Source of the DNA: Microcaldota archaeon
GTDB taxonomy: Archaea > Micrarchaeota > Micrarchaeia > Micrarchaeales > Micrarchaeaceae
Direction of reading: 5' to 3'
Assembly: GCA_021848125.1 (NCBI GenBank)
Contig: JAJZMY010000038.1
Span: 1,871 to 34,057 of the forward strand
DNA: 32,187 nt
Below, piece after piece: positions 17,731 to 23,469 of this stretch. The stretch's first letter is position 1, and each line of letters begins with the position of its first letter. The translations under genes were made by a program, and so were the position numbers. The notes below the pieces were generated by a model. That model saw only the letters and a list, made by a program, of their open reading frames with translations. It made no database searches and was not told the DNA's origin.

Positions 17731-17877
17731 TAAATCAGTCCTTTATTTTATTTTTTTATTTAAATATATCCTTATTTATAGTCATATTATTATTTTTTAG
17801 ATTTGTTATTAAATTATATAATATGTTTCATAATATATACCTGTTATAGTTGTTATTTAATTTATTAAAATTTATTG

Positions 17878-19047
17878 ATGGATGAAATGTCTGTAAAATT
17901 AATTATAATGCAATCCAATTTAACGCTTAAAGGGGGCGCTGAAAGAGTAATTTTAAAAATAGCAAAACATTATAATGCAAAAATATATACTGCAGAATAT
18001 GAGCAGCAAAACACTTTTAATGAATTTAAAGATATTGATATTGAAGTGATTGGAAGTAAATTTTTATTAAACTTATTGCCTTATGGCAGAATCAATCAAG
18101 CTATTAATTATGGTTCTGCATTTTATAATTTTAAATTAAAAGAAGACTATGATGTTATAAATGCGCACATGGCGCCAAGCCACTGGATTAGAAATAAAAA
18201 TATAAATGTATTATGGTACTGCCATACTCCATTAAGGGATGTATATGACTTATACAAATACAGATTATCATTAAAAAAATATTATCAAAAACCACTATAC
18301 AGCCTTGGAAGAAATGTAATTAAACATATTGATAAAAATATTGTGAATAAAATAGAATTTATTTTTGCAAATAGCAGGAACACTGAGATGAGAATAAAAA
18401 AATTTTATAATAGAAATGATGCTGAAGTTTTAAATGGAGGAATTGATTATAAATTATATGAAAATAATGGCGATAAAAAATATTTTTTGTATCCATCAAG
18501 AATTTCACAAAACAAAAGACAGGATTATGCGATTAGGGCATTTGAAATATTTAAAAGAAAATTAAGATTAAATGATAAAAATAAATATAAACTTATTATT
18601 TGCGGAGCATTATCAAAAGACAAATCTTTTAGAAATTACTACAATGAAATCAAGCACCAAATAAAAAAAATAGAAAATGCTGAACTACTATTAAATATTG
18701 ACGAAAAAAAACTGCATAATCTTTATTCCAATGCAACTGCTGTTCTTTATCCTCCATTAAATGAAGATTACGGGCTTGTTCCTCTAGAAGCAATGGCATC
18801 AGGAAAACCCATTATTGCAGTTAATGAGGGAGGGCCAAAAGAAACCATAGTCAACAATAAAACAGGCTTCCTAATAAATAATGAAAATGAAATGGCGGAA
18901 AGAATGAAATATGTTGCAGAACACCCTGCTATTGCAAAAGAAATTGGAAAAAATGGAATGCAAAGAATAAAAAAATATTATTCATGGGATATTTTCTTTG
19001 AAAAATTTGACAAAAAAATAAATGAAATGAAAAAAAATGGCAAATAA
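17878..19047 (+). CDS. Glycosyltransferase family 4 (GT-B fold)
   Basis: Transfers a sugar from an activated donor to a lipid, protein or polysaccharide acceptor. The 389-residue protein begins GGAERVILKIAKHYN, a donor/acceptor loop typical of GT4 enzymes. Its C-terminal Rossmann domain has LYPSRISQNKRQDYAIRAFE (donor phosphate binding) and NEDYGLVPLEAMASGKPIIA, which carries the E-x7-E motif, then EGGPKETI. I chose ATG at 17878 over the TTG immediately before it. The last 11 bp overlap the start of an acetyltransferase, so the two are translationally coupled and may modify the same glycan. The acceptor is unknown. Confidence 0.92.
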   Translation: MDEMSVKLIIMQSNLTLKGGAERVILKIAKHYNAKIYTAEYEQQNTFNEFKDIDIEVIGSKFLLNLLPYGRINQAINYGSAFYNFKLKEDYDVINAHMAPSHWIRNKNINVLWYCHTPLRDVYDLYKYRLSLKKYYQKPLYSLGRNVIKHIDKNIVNKIEFIFANSRNTEMRIKKFYNRNDAEVLNGGIDYKLYENNGDKKYFLYPSRISQNKRQDYAIRAFEIFKRKLRLNDKNKYKLIICGALSKDKSFRNYYNEIKHQIKKIENAELLLNIDEKKLHNLYSNATAVLYPPLNEDYGLVPLEAMASGKPIIAVNEGGPKETIVNNKTGFLINNENEMAERMKYVAEHPAIAKEIGKNGMQRIKKYYSWDIFFEKFDKKINEMKKNGK

Positions 19048-19633
19048 ATTTAACAAAAAGAGAATAAAAATTCATATTGGATTATTGCCAAATATTTATT
19101 TGGCTAACTTAAAATTAGCTGATGCAAAAAACCTAAGGAATGATCTTAATCAGATAAATAAAGAACTTAATTGCAATATTTATTATACTTCTTATGCAGT
19201 AAAATCATTTATTAAAAATTCATTAAATTTTTATAGTAATGAATTTCATTTTGGAGTCTATAAGTTTTCATCAAAGCAGATTATTGGAATGTTTTCAATA
19301 GTAAGTATTGACTATAGGAAAAAAATTTGCGAAATAGGATACTGGATTGCAAAAAAATACAGGAAAAAGGGTTATGGAAAAGATGCGCTTGCTTTATTGA
19401 TCTACTTTATTTTTAAAGTTTTAAAATTCAATAAAATATATGCAGTGCTGGATTCAGATAATATATATTCCCTTAATCTGCTGCTGCGAAATAATTTTAA
19501 AAAAACAATAAACAATAACAAATATATTCCGCAAAATAAAATCTTATATAAAATAGCAAATCCTAATAAAATTAAAGCATATGTTTTATTAAAAAAAGAT
19601 TTTTTATTTAATGACAAAATAAAAATTGAATAA
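19037..19633 (+). CDS. GNAT-family N-acetyltransferase
   Basis: A 198-residue protein with a GNAT core: HFGVYKFSSKQIIGMFSIVS (strands 2-3), EIGYWIAKKYRKKGYGKDAL, which contains the acetyl-CoA pyrophosphate loop Q/R-x-x-G-x-G/A, then KIYAVLDSDNIYSLNLLLRN, the conserved C-terminal half. This pattern is closest to RimJ/RimL-type enzymes that acetylate protein N-termini or small amines. It overlaps the preceding glycosyltransferase by 11 bp, which suggests that it may act on an amino sugar made or placed by that pathway; this is inference. The tail is rich in Lys/Asn, as elsewhere in the window. Confidence 0.85.
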   Translation: MANKFNKKRIKIHIGLLPNIYLANLKLADAKNLRNDLNQINKELNCNIYYTSYAVKSFIKNSLNFYSNEFHFGVYKFSSKQIIGMFSIVSIDYRKKICEIGYWIAKKYRKKGYGKDALALLIYFIFKVLKFNKIYAVLDSDNIYSLNLLLRNNFKKTINNNKYIPQNKILYKIANPNKIKAYVLLKKDFLFNDKIKIE

Positions 19634-19686
19634 AAAATAAAATAAACAGTAAAAATTTTCTTTTTTAATTTCATGTTGTTGCTGCT

Positions 19687-21255
19687 TTATTTTATAATAT
19701 TATCTATTTTACTTAAGTCATAGCCTTTTTTTCGCGCCCATGCTTTTAGCCAATTCAGCATGATTGAAAACGCTGGAAGCGCGCTTGAATATAATAAAAA
19801 TTTTAAGGATGCGCTTTTAACAACGCCTGAAGGTGCATGAGTCAATTCATATACAATATGCTTCCATGAAAGGTATAAAACAAAGAAACGCAGTTCTGTC
19901 ATTTCTTCATCAATATCAAAAAATGAATCCCCATGCATTATTCCTGCAGGAATAAAACTTAAAGGAACAGTAACAAAATGTGTTTTTTCTTTTCCTATTT
20001 TTTTAGGTACTTCAGTTTCCATTTTATGCAATAATCTTATAGTATCTTTTAAATCATCATCAGTTTCGCCGGGAATTCCCAAAATCAAAGTATATGCTGG
20101 AAACCAGTAGTTTTTATTGTAATTAATTGTTCCCTTTATTACAACATCCTCCCATTCATCAGCAGAAAAAGGCTTTGCTTTATAAGGCATAATTTGTTTT
20201 AACAGTCTTGCGGAGCCTGTTTCAAGTCCTGGCTGTACGCCAACCCAGTAGTTTTTACCGGCATGCATAATTTCGCTTAATTTTTTTACAAGATCAGGAT
20301 CATGTGCTGCTGGGGCAATGGAGCCGTGCGTTGGGTGTATATCTCTTAGGCCTTTTATTTTGGATATTTCAGAGAATAATTCAATCAATGCATCATTATT
20401 TGGTATAAAATTTCTATGATCTTCAAGTTTGTAAAGCCAGAAATCCTCGCTTTGAGCCCATAGGCTTTTATATCCTGAATTAACATTTACTTGTATTTCT
20501 TTTTTAATATAATCCACTGACTGGTATCTTGCTCTCCTTAAATTGGGCTCACAAAATTCGCAATTTCTTCCGCATCCTCTCATTATTTCAACTAGTCCGT
20601 TTAAAGAAGGATTTCTTATTTGCGGGGTCTGGGAAATAATTGGAAATTCCTTATGCCTGTAAACTCTTGGCAAGGTGTTATTTAATACCTTGTGCAATAT
20701 ATTATCTGCAATTCCATCATATTCTCCAATAATAACATTATCAATATTATTATAGGGTTCTTTTTCCAGGTAATTTGATCTTAACTCAAATTGCCATGCT
20801 CCTGGACCTCCGACAAGCAGTTTAAATTTATAATTGTTCCTTTTTTTAATTTCTCCGATCTGCTTTATTAATTCAGCAAATAAAAATTTTGAATATGATG
20901 TTGTTTTTCCGCCAAGAGTAAACATCATGCTAACAGGACCTAATGCTAAAGGATCCATTGTATTTACAGCAACAATTTCTGTATCTCTGCTAATAAAATT
21001 TTTAATATAATCAGGATAAGCTGTTATTATATCATTTGCATTCCAGTCAAAAATAGATGCCTCGAACTTTCTTAGCCCGTAAGGAGCTCTTGATGCAATG
21101 CCGTTATTAAGAACTGGAACTTTTTTTGCGAAAAAGAAGAATAAAGATTTGGGTACTATTTCTTTTGGGGCGCAGGCAAAAAAATCGCCTAATGGAATGT
21201 CTCTATATTCACTCATCAGACTCCTATCAGATGTTAATATTATTCTATTAGCCAT
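19687..21255 (-). CDS. Radical SAM protein with B12-binding-like N-terminal region
   Basis: A 522-residue archaeal radical SAM enzyme of unknown reaction. The cluster motif is MRGCGRNCEFCEPN with Cys228, Cys232 and Cys235 (C-x3-C-x2-C). The N-terminal about 200 residues, with APYGLRKFEASIF (57-69) and LLVGGPGAWQFE (147-158), resemble the cobalamin-binding-like domains of the methylthiotransferase-like group, although the classical DxHxxG cobalamin-ligand motif is not obvious. After the barrel come GVQPGLETGSARLLKQIM and LILGIPGETDDDL, typical of this family. The C-terminus is hydrophobic and helical. The gene lies 57 bp behind the TBP-like gene on the same strand, so they could be co-transcribed. 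Confidence 0.88.
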   Translation of the reverse strand: MANRIILTSDRSLMSEYRDIPLGDFFACAPKEIVPKSLFFFFAKKVPVLNNGIASRAPYGLRKFEASIFDWNANDIITAYPDYIKNFISRDTEIVAVNTMDPLALGPVSMMFTLGGKTTSYSKFLFAELIKQIGEIKKRNNYKFKLLVGGPGAWQFELRSNYLEKEPYNNIDNVIIGEYDGIADNILHKVLNNTLPRVYRHKEFPIISQTPQIRNPSLNGLVEIMRGCGRNCEFCEPNLRRARYQSVDYIKKEIQVNVNSGYKSLWAQSEDFWLYKLEDHRNFIPNNDALIELFSEISKIKGLRDIHPTHGSIAPAAHDPDLVKKLSEIMHAGKNYWVGVQPGLETGSARLLKQIMPYKAKPFSADEWEDVVIKGTINYNKNYWFPAYTLILGIPGETDDDLKDTIRLLHKMETEVPKKIGKEKTHFVTVPLSFIPAGIMHGDSFFDIDEEMTELRFFVLYLSWKHIVYELTHAPSGVVKSASLKFLLYSSALPAFSIMLNWLKAWARKKGYDLSKIDNIIK

Positions 21256-21312
21256 TTTATCATTAATACCCAGAATATGCTAAATTTTCTTATTTCAAAA
21301 ATTTAAGTAAAA

Positions 21313-21612
21313 TCAGCTTGGAACTTTAATAACATATTTAGAAAGAACCTTAGAAACGTAGGCCAATATTTTTTTGATATCCTCTTCTGTTTTTGCGCCA
21401 GTGCATATCATTTTTCCGTTTTTAAATATTATAAGAACTGATTTTGGTTCTGCAATTCTGAAAATTGCCCCTGGAAACTGCTCGGGCTCATAGTCAACAA
21501 ATTTAATATTATTGGATAATGCATATAGATCAATGCTTGCATGAAGATCTGCACTAACAACAAGATTTTGTATGTTTATTTTTGGCATTCCTTTAGTATT
21601 TGATTTTGACAT
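21313..21612 (-). CDS. Single-repeat (half-length) TATA-binding protein homologue
   Basis: A 99-residue protein that aligns by eye to one repeat of archaeal TBP: INIQNLVVSADLHASIDL, YEPEQFPGAIFRIAEP, then IIFKNGKMICTGAKTEEDIK. Archaeal TBP normally has two such repeats in about 180 residues. Residues that touch DNA in TBP are kept: Asn16 (minor-groove centre) and the two intercalating phenylalanines, Phe46 and Phe63, with the same 17-residue spacing as in known TBPs. The frame ends after SKYVIKVPS with a proper stop, and no second repeat follows in any frame within the 57 bp before the next gene. It could act as a homodimer, be a paralogue of a full TBP elsewhere, or be a truncated copy; lack of decay argues against the last. 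Confidence 0.88.
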   Translation of the reverse strand: MSKSNTKGMPKINIQNLVVSADLHASIDLYALSNNIKFVDYEPEQFPGAIFRIAEPKSVLIIFKNGKMICTGAKTEEDIKKILAYVSKVLSKYVIKVPS

Positions 21613-21731
21613 AAATACACCATTTATATTATAAGATTAAGTAATAAAAGAATTTAAATATTTATCTTATATGTTTTAATATAGTTTTATTTTTAATTCA
21701 TTATTTTATCTATGAATAAAAAACAATAATA

Positions 21732-22853
21732 GTGGATAGATTGAAAAAAGTTATTATTATTGGCGCTGGAATCATTGGCTTAATTTTTGCTAAAGAGCTG
21801 TCTGCCCTTAACATTAATTGCGAAATCTATGAATCAAAACCAAATGTATATAAAAATGCAGATAAAGCATCTGGGATACTATCAAAAAATGGCCTTGAAA
21901 AATTAGGCATTGATTTTTCTTCGAGTATTGAAAATAAAATCAATGGGGCAATAATCCACATAAACAATAAAAAAATAAGACTGGAAAAAACATCAACAGT
22001 TGCCTATATTATTAACAGACAGAAAATTGTTAAAGTTCTATATAATGAACTGAGAAATAATAAATTTATAAAATTTAATTTTAACAAAAAAATAGAAAAA
22101 CAAGAACTCAAAAAACTGAAAAACAATAAAAATAATATAATTGTTGGCGCAGACGGCGCTGTTTCTGCTGTTGCTTCTGCTTTTGATTTTCCAAAGATAA
22201 AGGAATATATTCTAACATATAAAACAGAATATAACAATGCAAAAGCAGCAAATACAAATTTCGTTGAATTGTTTTTTAACAATAAACTTATGCCTGGTTT
22301 TTTTGCATGGGTTGCACCGCATTCAAATTCTAAAATTGAAATAGGAATTGGAATAAGCAGCAATAAAAAAAAGAACAGCAGAGATATATTTAATAAATTT
22401 ATTGAAGATAAGAACATTAAACAAATTATAAAAAATGCAAAAATAAAATCGCAGCATGCCAGTATTATTCCGATTGCGATAAGAAAAAAAACAGTTATTG
22501 ATAATGCGATTTTAATTGGGGATGCTGCGGGCCAGGTTAAATCTTCTACTGGCGGCGGAATAATTTTTGGCGCCATGTGCGCAAAAATAGCTGCTGAAAT
22601 AGTGCATCAAAATATTCTAGAAAACAAACCATTGAAAAAATACGAAAAAGAATGGAGAAAAAAATACGAATTTGATTTGAAAATGCACAGATTATTGCAT
22701 AATTTCTATTCACGTACAAATAATAAGCATTTAATAAGTATTTTGGATTTTTTAAAATTATTGAATATGGAAAGAATAATATCAAAATATGGAGATATGG
22801 ATAGTCTGGTGCAGACATTAAAAAATATTGTAACAAGAAAAAAACAAAGATGA
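21732..22853 (+). CDS. FAD-dependent oxidoreductase, geranylgeranyl reductase-like
   Basis: A 373-residue flavoprotein. An N-terminal Rossmann FAD motif (IIIGAGIIGLIFAKEL, GAGIIG at 11-16) is followed by IIVGADGAVSAVASAF (136-151), the second FAD/NADH motif, and by PGFFAWVAP (188-196) and GDAAGQVKSSTGGGI (263-277). The last two are typical of geranylgeranyl reductases, which saturate archaeal isoprenoid lipid chains. The length is near that of the family. The start is GTG at 21732; a TTG nine bases later is the alternative. It is divergent from the TBP-like gene. Lipid reduction is a reasonable guess, but other members of this flavoprotein family act on different polyprenyl substrates. Confidence 0.82.
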   Translation: MDRLKKVIIIGAGIIGLIFAKELSALNINCEIYESKPNVYKNADKASGILSKNGLEKLGIDFSSSIENKINGAIIHINNKKIRLEKTSTVAYIINRQKIVKVLYNELRNNKFIKFNFNKKIEKQELKKLKNNKNNIIVGADGAVSAVASAFDFPKIKEYILTYKTEYNNAKAANTNFVELFFNNKLMPGFFAWVAPHSNSKIEIGIGISSNKKKNSRDIFNKFIEDKNIKQIIKNAKIKSQHASIIPIAIRKKTVIDNAILIGDAAGQVKSSTGGGIIFGAMCAKIAAEIVHQNILENKPLKKYEKEWRKKYEFDLKMHRLLHNFYSRTNNKHLISILDFLKLLNMERIISKYGDMDSLVQTLKNIVTRKKQR

Positions 22854-22881: not shown

Positions 22882-23469
22882 TTAATTTTTTTTGTATAGC
22901 AATAATTCATTGCTTGCATGCTCTATCAGAATTCTTGAAACATCCTGCTTTTTTCTAATATCCGGTATTAGTGCTGAAGAAAAACGAAGCGGCCTTGTCA
23001 AATCAGATATTTCAATCATTATGTCTAAATAGGTTTCTGCAATTTTTATATTGCTTTTTCTCAGAGAATCAATAAATTCGCGATTTAATTCGCCGACAAG
23101 ATCCAGCAAGCCGAGCAGATATGCTTCCGGCCTAATATTTATTGATGAATGAGATAGAAATTTATTATTGATTTTAATTTCAAAGAATAATTTAGCTTCA
23201 ACATATTCTTGATATGCTTGCAGAGTATAATATTCAAATTCCTTATCTATTCTTTTTAAGTTTTTGACACGTTTTTCCAAATATTTAAGCTTGTTTTGCA
23301 TTGCTTTTTTTGAATTCAAATTGATATTATGAACCATTGTAATTAATTCTGCGGCTTCTCTTACAATTAATTTGGATTCATTTAATATCTTATCAAAGTT
23401 ATTCTGTCTTTTTAATAAATATTTTTTAATGTCTGCAATGTCTTTTTTTATATCGCTAAATAAAAACAT
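22882..23469 (-). CDS. Translin-family protein
   Basis: A 195-residue all-helical protein. The C-terminal half carries the translin signature: RPEAYLLGLLDLVGELNREF, then KIAETYLDIMIEISDLTRPL and LIPDIRKKQDVSRILIEHAS, matching the order found in archaeal and eukaryotic translin. Family members form octameric rings that bind single-stranded RNA or DNA, and some have RNase activity together with TRAX. The acidic residues expected in TRAX-type active sites are not clearly visible, so I favour the nucleic-acid-binding translin role. The N-terminal about 80 residues are a Lys-rich helical region. It is convergent with the flavoprotein gene. Confidence 0.85.
   Translation of the reverse strand: MFLFSDIKKDIADIKKYLLKRQNNFDKILNESKLIVREAAELITMVHNINLNSKKAMQNKLKYLEKRVKNLKRIDKEFEYYTLQAYQEYVEAKLFFEIKINNKFLSHSSINIRPEAYLLGLLDLVGELNREFIDSLRKSNIKIAETYLDIMIEISDLTRPLRFSSALIPDIRKKQDVSRILIEHASNELLLYKKN

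Follow-up and report, generated by a model that had tools for sequence, protein, structure and literature searches.

Single-repeat TATA-binding proteins as the sole TBP type in most Micrarchaeota families and most Diapherotrites

In archaea and eukaryotes alike, the TATA-binding protein (TBP) is regarded as universally two-lobed, each lobe binding half of the TATA box. Its origin by duplication from a homodimer is a standard inference, for which, to our knowledge, there is no living example. Haloarchaea encode multiple paralogous TBPs beside TFB, as does the genome described here, and the haloarchaeal TBPs consist of two repeats. The genes examined here come from Micrarchaeota and Diapherotrites, which are tiny symbiotic archaea, and their repeats are called single-type below. 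Canonical archaeal TBPs (Sulfolobus acidocaldarius, 1mp9; Pyrococcus woesei, 1ais) share with them the fold of each repeat and its Asn, Phe and Glu contacts; as with canonical TBP, a TFB is encoded in the same genome, and BRE/TATA promoters are found in relatives. Unlike canonical TBP, the single type has one repeat per chain and no N/C asymmetry, and its two-fold symmetry would have to come from dimerisation. Single-type repeats also carry the motifs PGAI and FKNGK where classical repeats have PGL and FxSGK.

Archaeal proteins made of a single TBP lobe (‘monopartite’) were reportedly noted by Brindefalk et al. 2013 (NAR); like the protein described here, they are stand-alone single TBP domains. 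Ravarani et al. 2020 (PMC7221094) mention in a single sentence of their Methods that archaeal TBPs with one lobe had been observed; they cite Brindefalk et al. 2013 and name no lineage or role, whereas here a single lobe is the sole TBP of whole families and occurs together with TFB, TATA promoters, paralogous pairs and what appear to be re-fused forms. TBP and TFB have been counted as conserved in DPANN, with the size of TBP unmentioned (PMC8407392). Overlap with Brindefalk et al. 2013 aside, neither the wholesale replacement of TBP by a single-repeat form nor its re-fusion was found in the literature searched; within those limits both appear new, single-lobe archaeal TBPs having been known before.

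The TBP repeat of the window

The window, the whole stretch of 32,187 nucleotides that was analysed, encodes a protein that we call TBP-beta (Table 1). An earlier note had read it as one TBP repeat that keeps Asn16, Phe46 and Phe63, with the phenylalanines 17 residues apart, and that ends without trace of a second repeat; all of this held. The Pfam TBP profile (PF00352) matched TBP-beta in one stretch, residues 11-93, over the whole profile (positions 1-85 of 85; E = 1.1e-27), and a sequence search matched it to solved TBPs with E values down to 1.6e-43. In its AlphaFold2 model (pLDDT 90), strands and helices follow each other as in one TBP lobe (strand-helix-strands-helix), and the top matches of the model among solved structures were TBPs, with an RMSD of 0.7 Å over 84 columns to human TBP (1cdw); the RMSD to yeast TBP (1ytb) was 1.2 Å over 88 columns. 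The monomer is predicted to fold as a TBP half. RNase HIII, DNA glycosylases and RnlA likewise contain one helix-grip TBP-like domain, but within enzymes; the 99-residue open reading frame of TBP-beta holds the TBP repeat only, with no fused catalytic domain, and is closest in sequence to transcriptional TBP.

Table 1 Positions in the window of TBP-beta, its contact residues and its surroundings
Feature	Position	Strand	Remark
TBP-beta (name used here)	21313..21612	-	99 aa from ATG, complete single TBP repeat
Asn16 codon	21565..21567	-	minor-groove Asn of strand S1, from the sequence
E42-P43-E44 codons	21481..21489	-	TFB-contact motif of classical C-terminal lobes
Phe46 codon	21475..21477	-	first intercalating Phe; invariant in 85 beta, 38 alpha and 18 other single-repeat proteins
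Phe63 codon	21424..21426	-	second intercalating Phe; as invariant as Phe46, in the same proteins
Gap between TBP-beta stop and next minus-strand gene (start 21255)	21256..21312	.	57 bases
Divergent intergenic region upstream of TBP-beta	21613..21731	.	about 120 bases
FAD-dependent gene	21732..22853	+	geranylgeranyl-reductase-like by inspection; context, outside the TBP system
Glycosyltransferase gene	17875..19047	+	named by inspection; context, second conserved TBP-beta neighbour

Among the residues invariant in 85 TBP-beta orthologues are Y41, E42, P43, Q45, F46, P47, G48, A49 and I50 as well as F63, K64, N65 and G66, which rules out chance, a frameshift or an assembly break for TBP-beta. The equivalent of Asn16 is Asn in 96% of the 85 orthologues and in all 38 sequences of alpha, the second single-repeat TBP described below. 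The sequence YEPEQFPGA occurs in 54 of 54 single-type repeats; of 22 classical N repeats, 15 have YEPEQFPG, as do 21 of the 22 classical C repeats. At the positions of E42 and E44 (C.L3.2 and C.L3.4), two Glu residues have a TFB-contact role (PMC7221094). A hidden second repeat is excluded by the short gap on the stop side and the divergent gene upstream, and the flanking genes are intact.

Two genes conserved around TBP-beta distinguish its loci from those of alpha: of 81 beta loci, 73 have a homologue of the FAD-dependent neighbour and 72 one of the glycosyltransferase, and neither was found at any of 24 alpha loci. Between the glycosyltransferase and TBP-beta (19037-21255) lie genes that are GNAT-like and radical-SAM-like by inspection, with homologues at 0 of 81 and 2 of 81 beta loci, respectively; they look like an insertion in the lineage of the window. 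On the other side, a 195-residue gene on the minus strand (22882-23469), by eye a translin-like RNA-binding protein, has homologues at 3 of 81 beta loci. The alpha neighbours in the same genome (topoisomerase VI B and an Fe-S protein) were found at 0 of 23 other alpha loci.

TBP complements and their spread among archaea

The genome assembly to which the window belongs (G000; 776 kb, 41 contigs, 94.7% complete) contains exactly two TBP family matches, both single-repeat: TBP-beta and alpha, a 104-residue protein encoded on contig C31. A search of the whole of this assembly found no two-repeat TBP and one intact TFB (410 residues, contig C1) with a Zn ribbon and two cyclin repeats. The zinc ribbon of this TFB (L033:1474-2706) is preceded by an N-terminal extension of about 110 residues, basic and rich in Lys and Gln. 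The closed, one-contig genome of Ca. Micrarchaeum sp. A_DKE (989,838 bp) likewise has both single-repeat genes (at 156,040 and 786,685), with no further TBP, two-repeat or otherwise. That a full TBP was lost in assembly gaps was rejected, as closed or one-contig relatives also have none. The earlier note had suggested a dimerising general factor or else a regulator beside a full TBP. The second suggestion fell, the companion of TBP-beta being the single-repeat alpha; the first is the natural reading in a genome that lacks a full TBP, but TBP-beta is not the lone TBP. A full TBP elsewhere combined with loss of the protein from relatives, which would have spoken against the note, was looked for and not found.

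At the level of the order, 99 genomes were counted. In the family to which matches in named genomes assign the window, Micrarchaeaceae (f1, n = 50), 44 genomes have exactly two TBP matches. In the sister family (f2, n = 49), 27 genomes have one single-repeat TBP and no other, 20 have two and 2 have none; a member assembled as a single contig of 771,545 bp (G005) has one TBP, an alpha-type single repeat. Across the rest of the class (families f3-f21), a lone single-repeat TBP was counted in 26 genomes and a two-repeat TBP in 16, with none seen in 4; a further five genomes have two or three copies of one-repeat TBPs, one copy being divergent. Diapherotrites mostly have a single-repeat TBP. The single-repeat TBP is the sole TBP type in most Micrarchaeota families and most Diapherotrites, and a two-repeat TBP was found in nearly all other archaea sampled (about 70 genomes drawn from elsewhere, plus Thermoplasmatota); a single repeat at the end of a 3.3-kb contig (G182) was left out of the counts.

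Several complements stood out during the counts. Family f7 has up to three single-repeat TBP genes (L213, L214 and L215 in G112, on one 1.18-Mb contig), and in another of its members (G118; L216) two lie near each other on one contig. One genome (G054) has, on an 8.4-kb contig (C43), a classical two-repeat TBP (L003) beside its single-repeat TBPs; its halves group with Sulfolobus-type repeats, and it is probably a binning contaminant. A Diapherotrites genome (G164) has a 726-residue open reading frame with four TBP repeats (L237:964-3141) and a separate two-repeat TBP, and a Thermoplasmatota genome (G184; L252:1483-2632) has a pair of adjacent two-repeat TBP genes, in one of which, strongly diverged, the halves are 27% identical.

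The alpha group includes the gene on C31 together with all single-copy f2 genes that the tree contains, and the beta clade (support 100/100) comprises TBP-beta, f1 and part of f2, on a stem of 0.78 substitutions per site. By this tree, beta arose by duplication within the order, making TBP-beta a derived paralogue of alpha. Residues that bind DNA or contact TFB vary little or not at all among 85 betas, 38 alphas and 18 other single-repeat proteins. The strongest differences between alpha and beta are at TBP-beta residues 12, 24, 25, 27, 33, 35-38, 61, 82, 83, 85, 87 and 91, which sit in the approach to strand S1, helix H1 and its loops, strand S3 and helix H2, a pattern that would suit altered packing against a partner.

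Promoters and a proposed TBP dimer

Promoters were examined by counting TATA hexamers starting at -40 to -26 of start codons against dinucleotide shuffles, with gene starts taken from a simple rule and positions accordingly approximate. TATA hexamers occur in 33 of 236 upstream regions of the one-contig f2 genome G005, compared with 8.5 ± 2.9 in shuffles (z = 8.6), and in A_DKE the counts were 44 and 18.2 (z = 6.6); a genome with a two-repeat TBP (G109) gave 57 and 24.1. In the AT-rich genome of the window itself, enrichment was not significant (67 compared with 57.3; z = 1.5). A de novo search by expectation-maximisation recovered from G005 the motif cAA-n-n-TTTATATA, that is, BRE then TATA, with a log-likelihood gain of 167 compared with 44-54 in shuffled controls, and returned base-composition artefacts alone from A_DKE and the genome of the window.

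We put at roughly 0.8 the probability that, in Micrarchaeota and Diapherotrites, a single-repeat TBP replaces the two-repeat TBP as general factor and acts as a non-covalent dimer. Because each TBP lobe binds half of the TATA box, a one-lobe protein that is the sole TBP must dimerise to do the job of TBP. The results that stand directly behind a dimer are the single repeat, the absence of a full TBP, the alpha/beta pair, the contact residues, the intact TFB and the TATA promoters of relatives, and it also draws on those relatives in which two such repeats are linked in one chain; we infer from these dimerisation, DNA binding and bending, and the identity of the dimer formed. The lack of significant TATA enrichment in the genome of the window counts against a dimer, as does the incompleteness of its fragmented assembly, although the closed relatives answer the latter.

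In the mechanism that we propose, two single-repeat subunits would pair without a covalent link to make the TBP saddle. Each would insert its two phenylalanines into one half of the TATA box and present an identical EPE surface to TFB, and the polarity of the complex would be set by TFB and BRE, not by the TBP halves. TFB with BRE is the accepted determinant of polarity in archaea (PMC7289017). In alpha-only genomes, alpha would form a homodimer with two identical TFB-contact surfaces, which fits the invariance of EPE in single-type repeats, given that it is variable in classical N repeats. In Micrarchaeaceae, the gene is duplicated: alpha, the conserved copy, would pair with itself where it is alone, and beta, keeping all DNA- and TFB-facing residues and diverged elsewhere, would pair with alpha into a split, asymmetric TBP.

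For Micrarchaeaceae we lean, with some reserve, towards alpha-beta pairing in preference to beta as a separate alternative TBP. The competing role, which is possible but the less probable of the two, would make beta a specialised TBP or regulator, pairing with itself or blocking alpha at some promoters only, with alpha homodimers as the general form, an arrangement like that of the multiple haloarchaeal TBPs. Alpha alone is enough in those f2 genomes with a single TBP (27 of 49), where beta is not needed, and the long beta stem followed by strong conservation is also what specialisation might leave behind. Against this, beta accompanies alpha in nearly every genome of the family (44 of 50 with exactly two matches) and retains all residues that contact DNA or TFB; the differences fixed in it spare the DNA-binding loops, a pattern that packing against a new partner would also yield.

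Two-repeat forms and the origin of the single type

Two-repeat TBPs occur inside both phyla, in Micrarchaeota (L048, L069, L070 and L219-L231) and in Diapherotrites (L169 and L170). Their halves are 55-76% identical to each other in Micrarchaeota and 79-82% in Diapherotrites, compared with means of 47% in Thermoplasmatota and 51% in other archaea (maximum 58%), and both halves carry single-type motifs and are placed inside the single-type clade. Plain descent of the micrarchaeal forms from classical TBP, with their first halves grouped with classical first halves, was rejected (AU p = 5e-5 and 2e-5), as was one fusion shared by both phyla (AU p = 0.007); one fusion within Micrarchaeota was not rejected (AU p = 0.25). 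In a tree of RNA-polymerase B, the two-repeat Micrarchaeota are nested in single-repeat ones (nodes 98/95, 97/93 and 97/92) and the two-repeat Diapherotrites form a separate pair, and the halves of L169 adjoin a single-repeat neighbour inside the Diapherotrites clade. On the simplest account, the duplication and fusion of TBP appear to have been re-enacted from single-repeat TBPs in at least two lineages.

The same proteins could instead preserve an ancestral two-repeat TBP whose halves were homogenised by gene conversion, with the single-repeat forms produced by many separate deletions. Comparison of L219 with L220 shows private differences that recur in both halves of one protein, which points to concerted evolution between halves, and in L169 up to 58 of 70 identical residues have identical codons. 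This reading is nevertheless unlikely, given the nesting and separate pairing in the RNA-polymerase B tree, the position of the L169 halves and the fewer changes that fusion requires.

A tree of 98 repeats over 89 columns, including the classical N and C repeats of 22 proteins, compared the single type with first and second TBP repeats. All Micrarchaeota and Diapherotrites repeats formed one clade outside both (support 100/99). A log-odds score separating N from C gave +32 ± 9 for classical N repeats (leave-one-protein-out), -32 ± 14 for classical C repeats and +5.7 ± 9 for the single type. Given the separate clade and the near-zero score, the single type is neither classical half. Segment scores gave no clear breakpoint for an N/C chimera made by unequal crossing-over. 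A split gene, with TBP-beta as the old C repeat and alpha as the old N repeat, was rejected because both genes belong to the clade that stands outside the classical repeats, the log-odds score makes neither of them N or C, and beta is a duplicate that arose within the order.

Could these lineages have split off before TBP was duplicated, so that the homodimeric ancestor lives on as a relic in the single-repeat TBP and duplication-fusion was repeated separately inside Micrarchaeota and Diapherotrites? The separate clade and the intermediate score are compatible with this, and a tree with the classical N repeats as one clade was not rejected (AU p = 0.65 and 0.36). The attachment point of the single-type clade cannot be rooted on 89 columns, however, and on these columns a long-stemmed (0.58-0.65) derived repeat would give the same picture. 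Nearly all other sampled archaea, many small genomes included, have a classical two-repeat TBP, and a relic would require Micrarchaeota and Diapherotrites to be the first archaeal branch. We therefore hold a primitive state to be quite improbable; the spread of two-repeat TBP over the remaining archaea favours a derived state, that is, reduction. That a frameshift, an assembly break or contamination conceals a second repeat has a negligible chance, for although the assembly is in 41 contigs, the gene lies inside a 34-kb contig, flanked by intact genes, the single-repeat state recurs in 85 orthologues and in closed or one-contig genomes, and the closed A_DKE genome refutes it.

With a single-repeat TBP taken as the probable general factor, two phyla appear to run transcription on a one-lobe TBP, most of their families without a two-lobe TBP, and fusion of the lobes appears to have recurred in some single-repeat lineages. 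This raises the questions of whether a symmetric TBP dimer is enough for transcription, where polarity comes from when the lobes are identical, and what is gained when lobes fuse. Such questions are approachable with small proteins, and Ca. Micrarchaeum sp. A_DKE offers a closed genome in which to pursue them.
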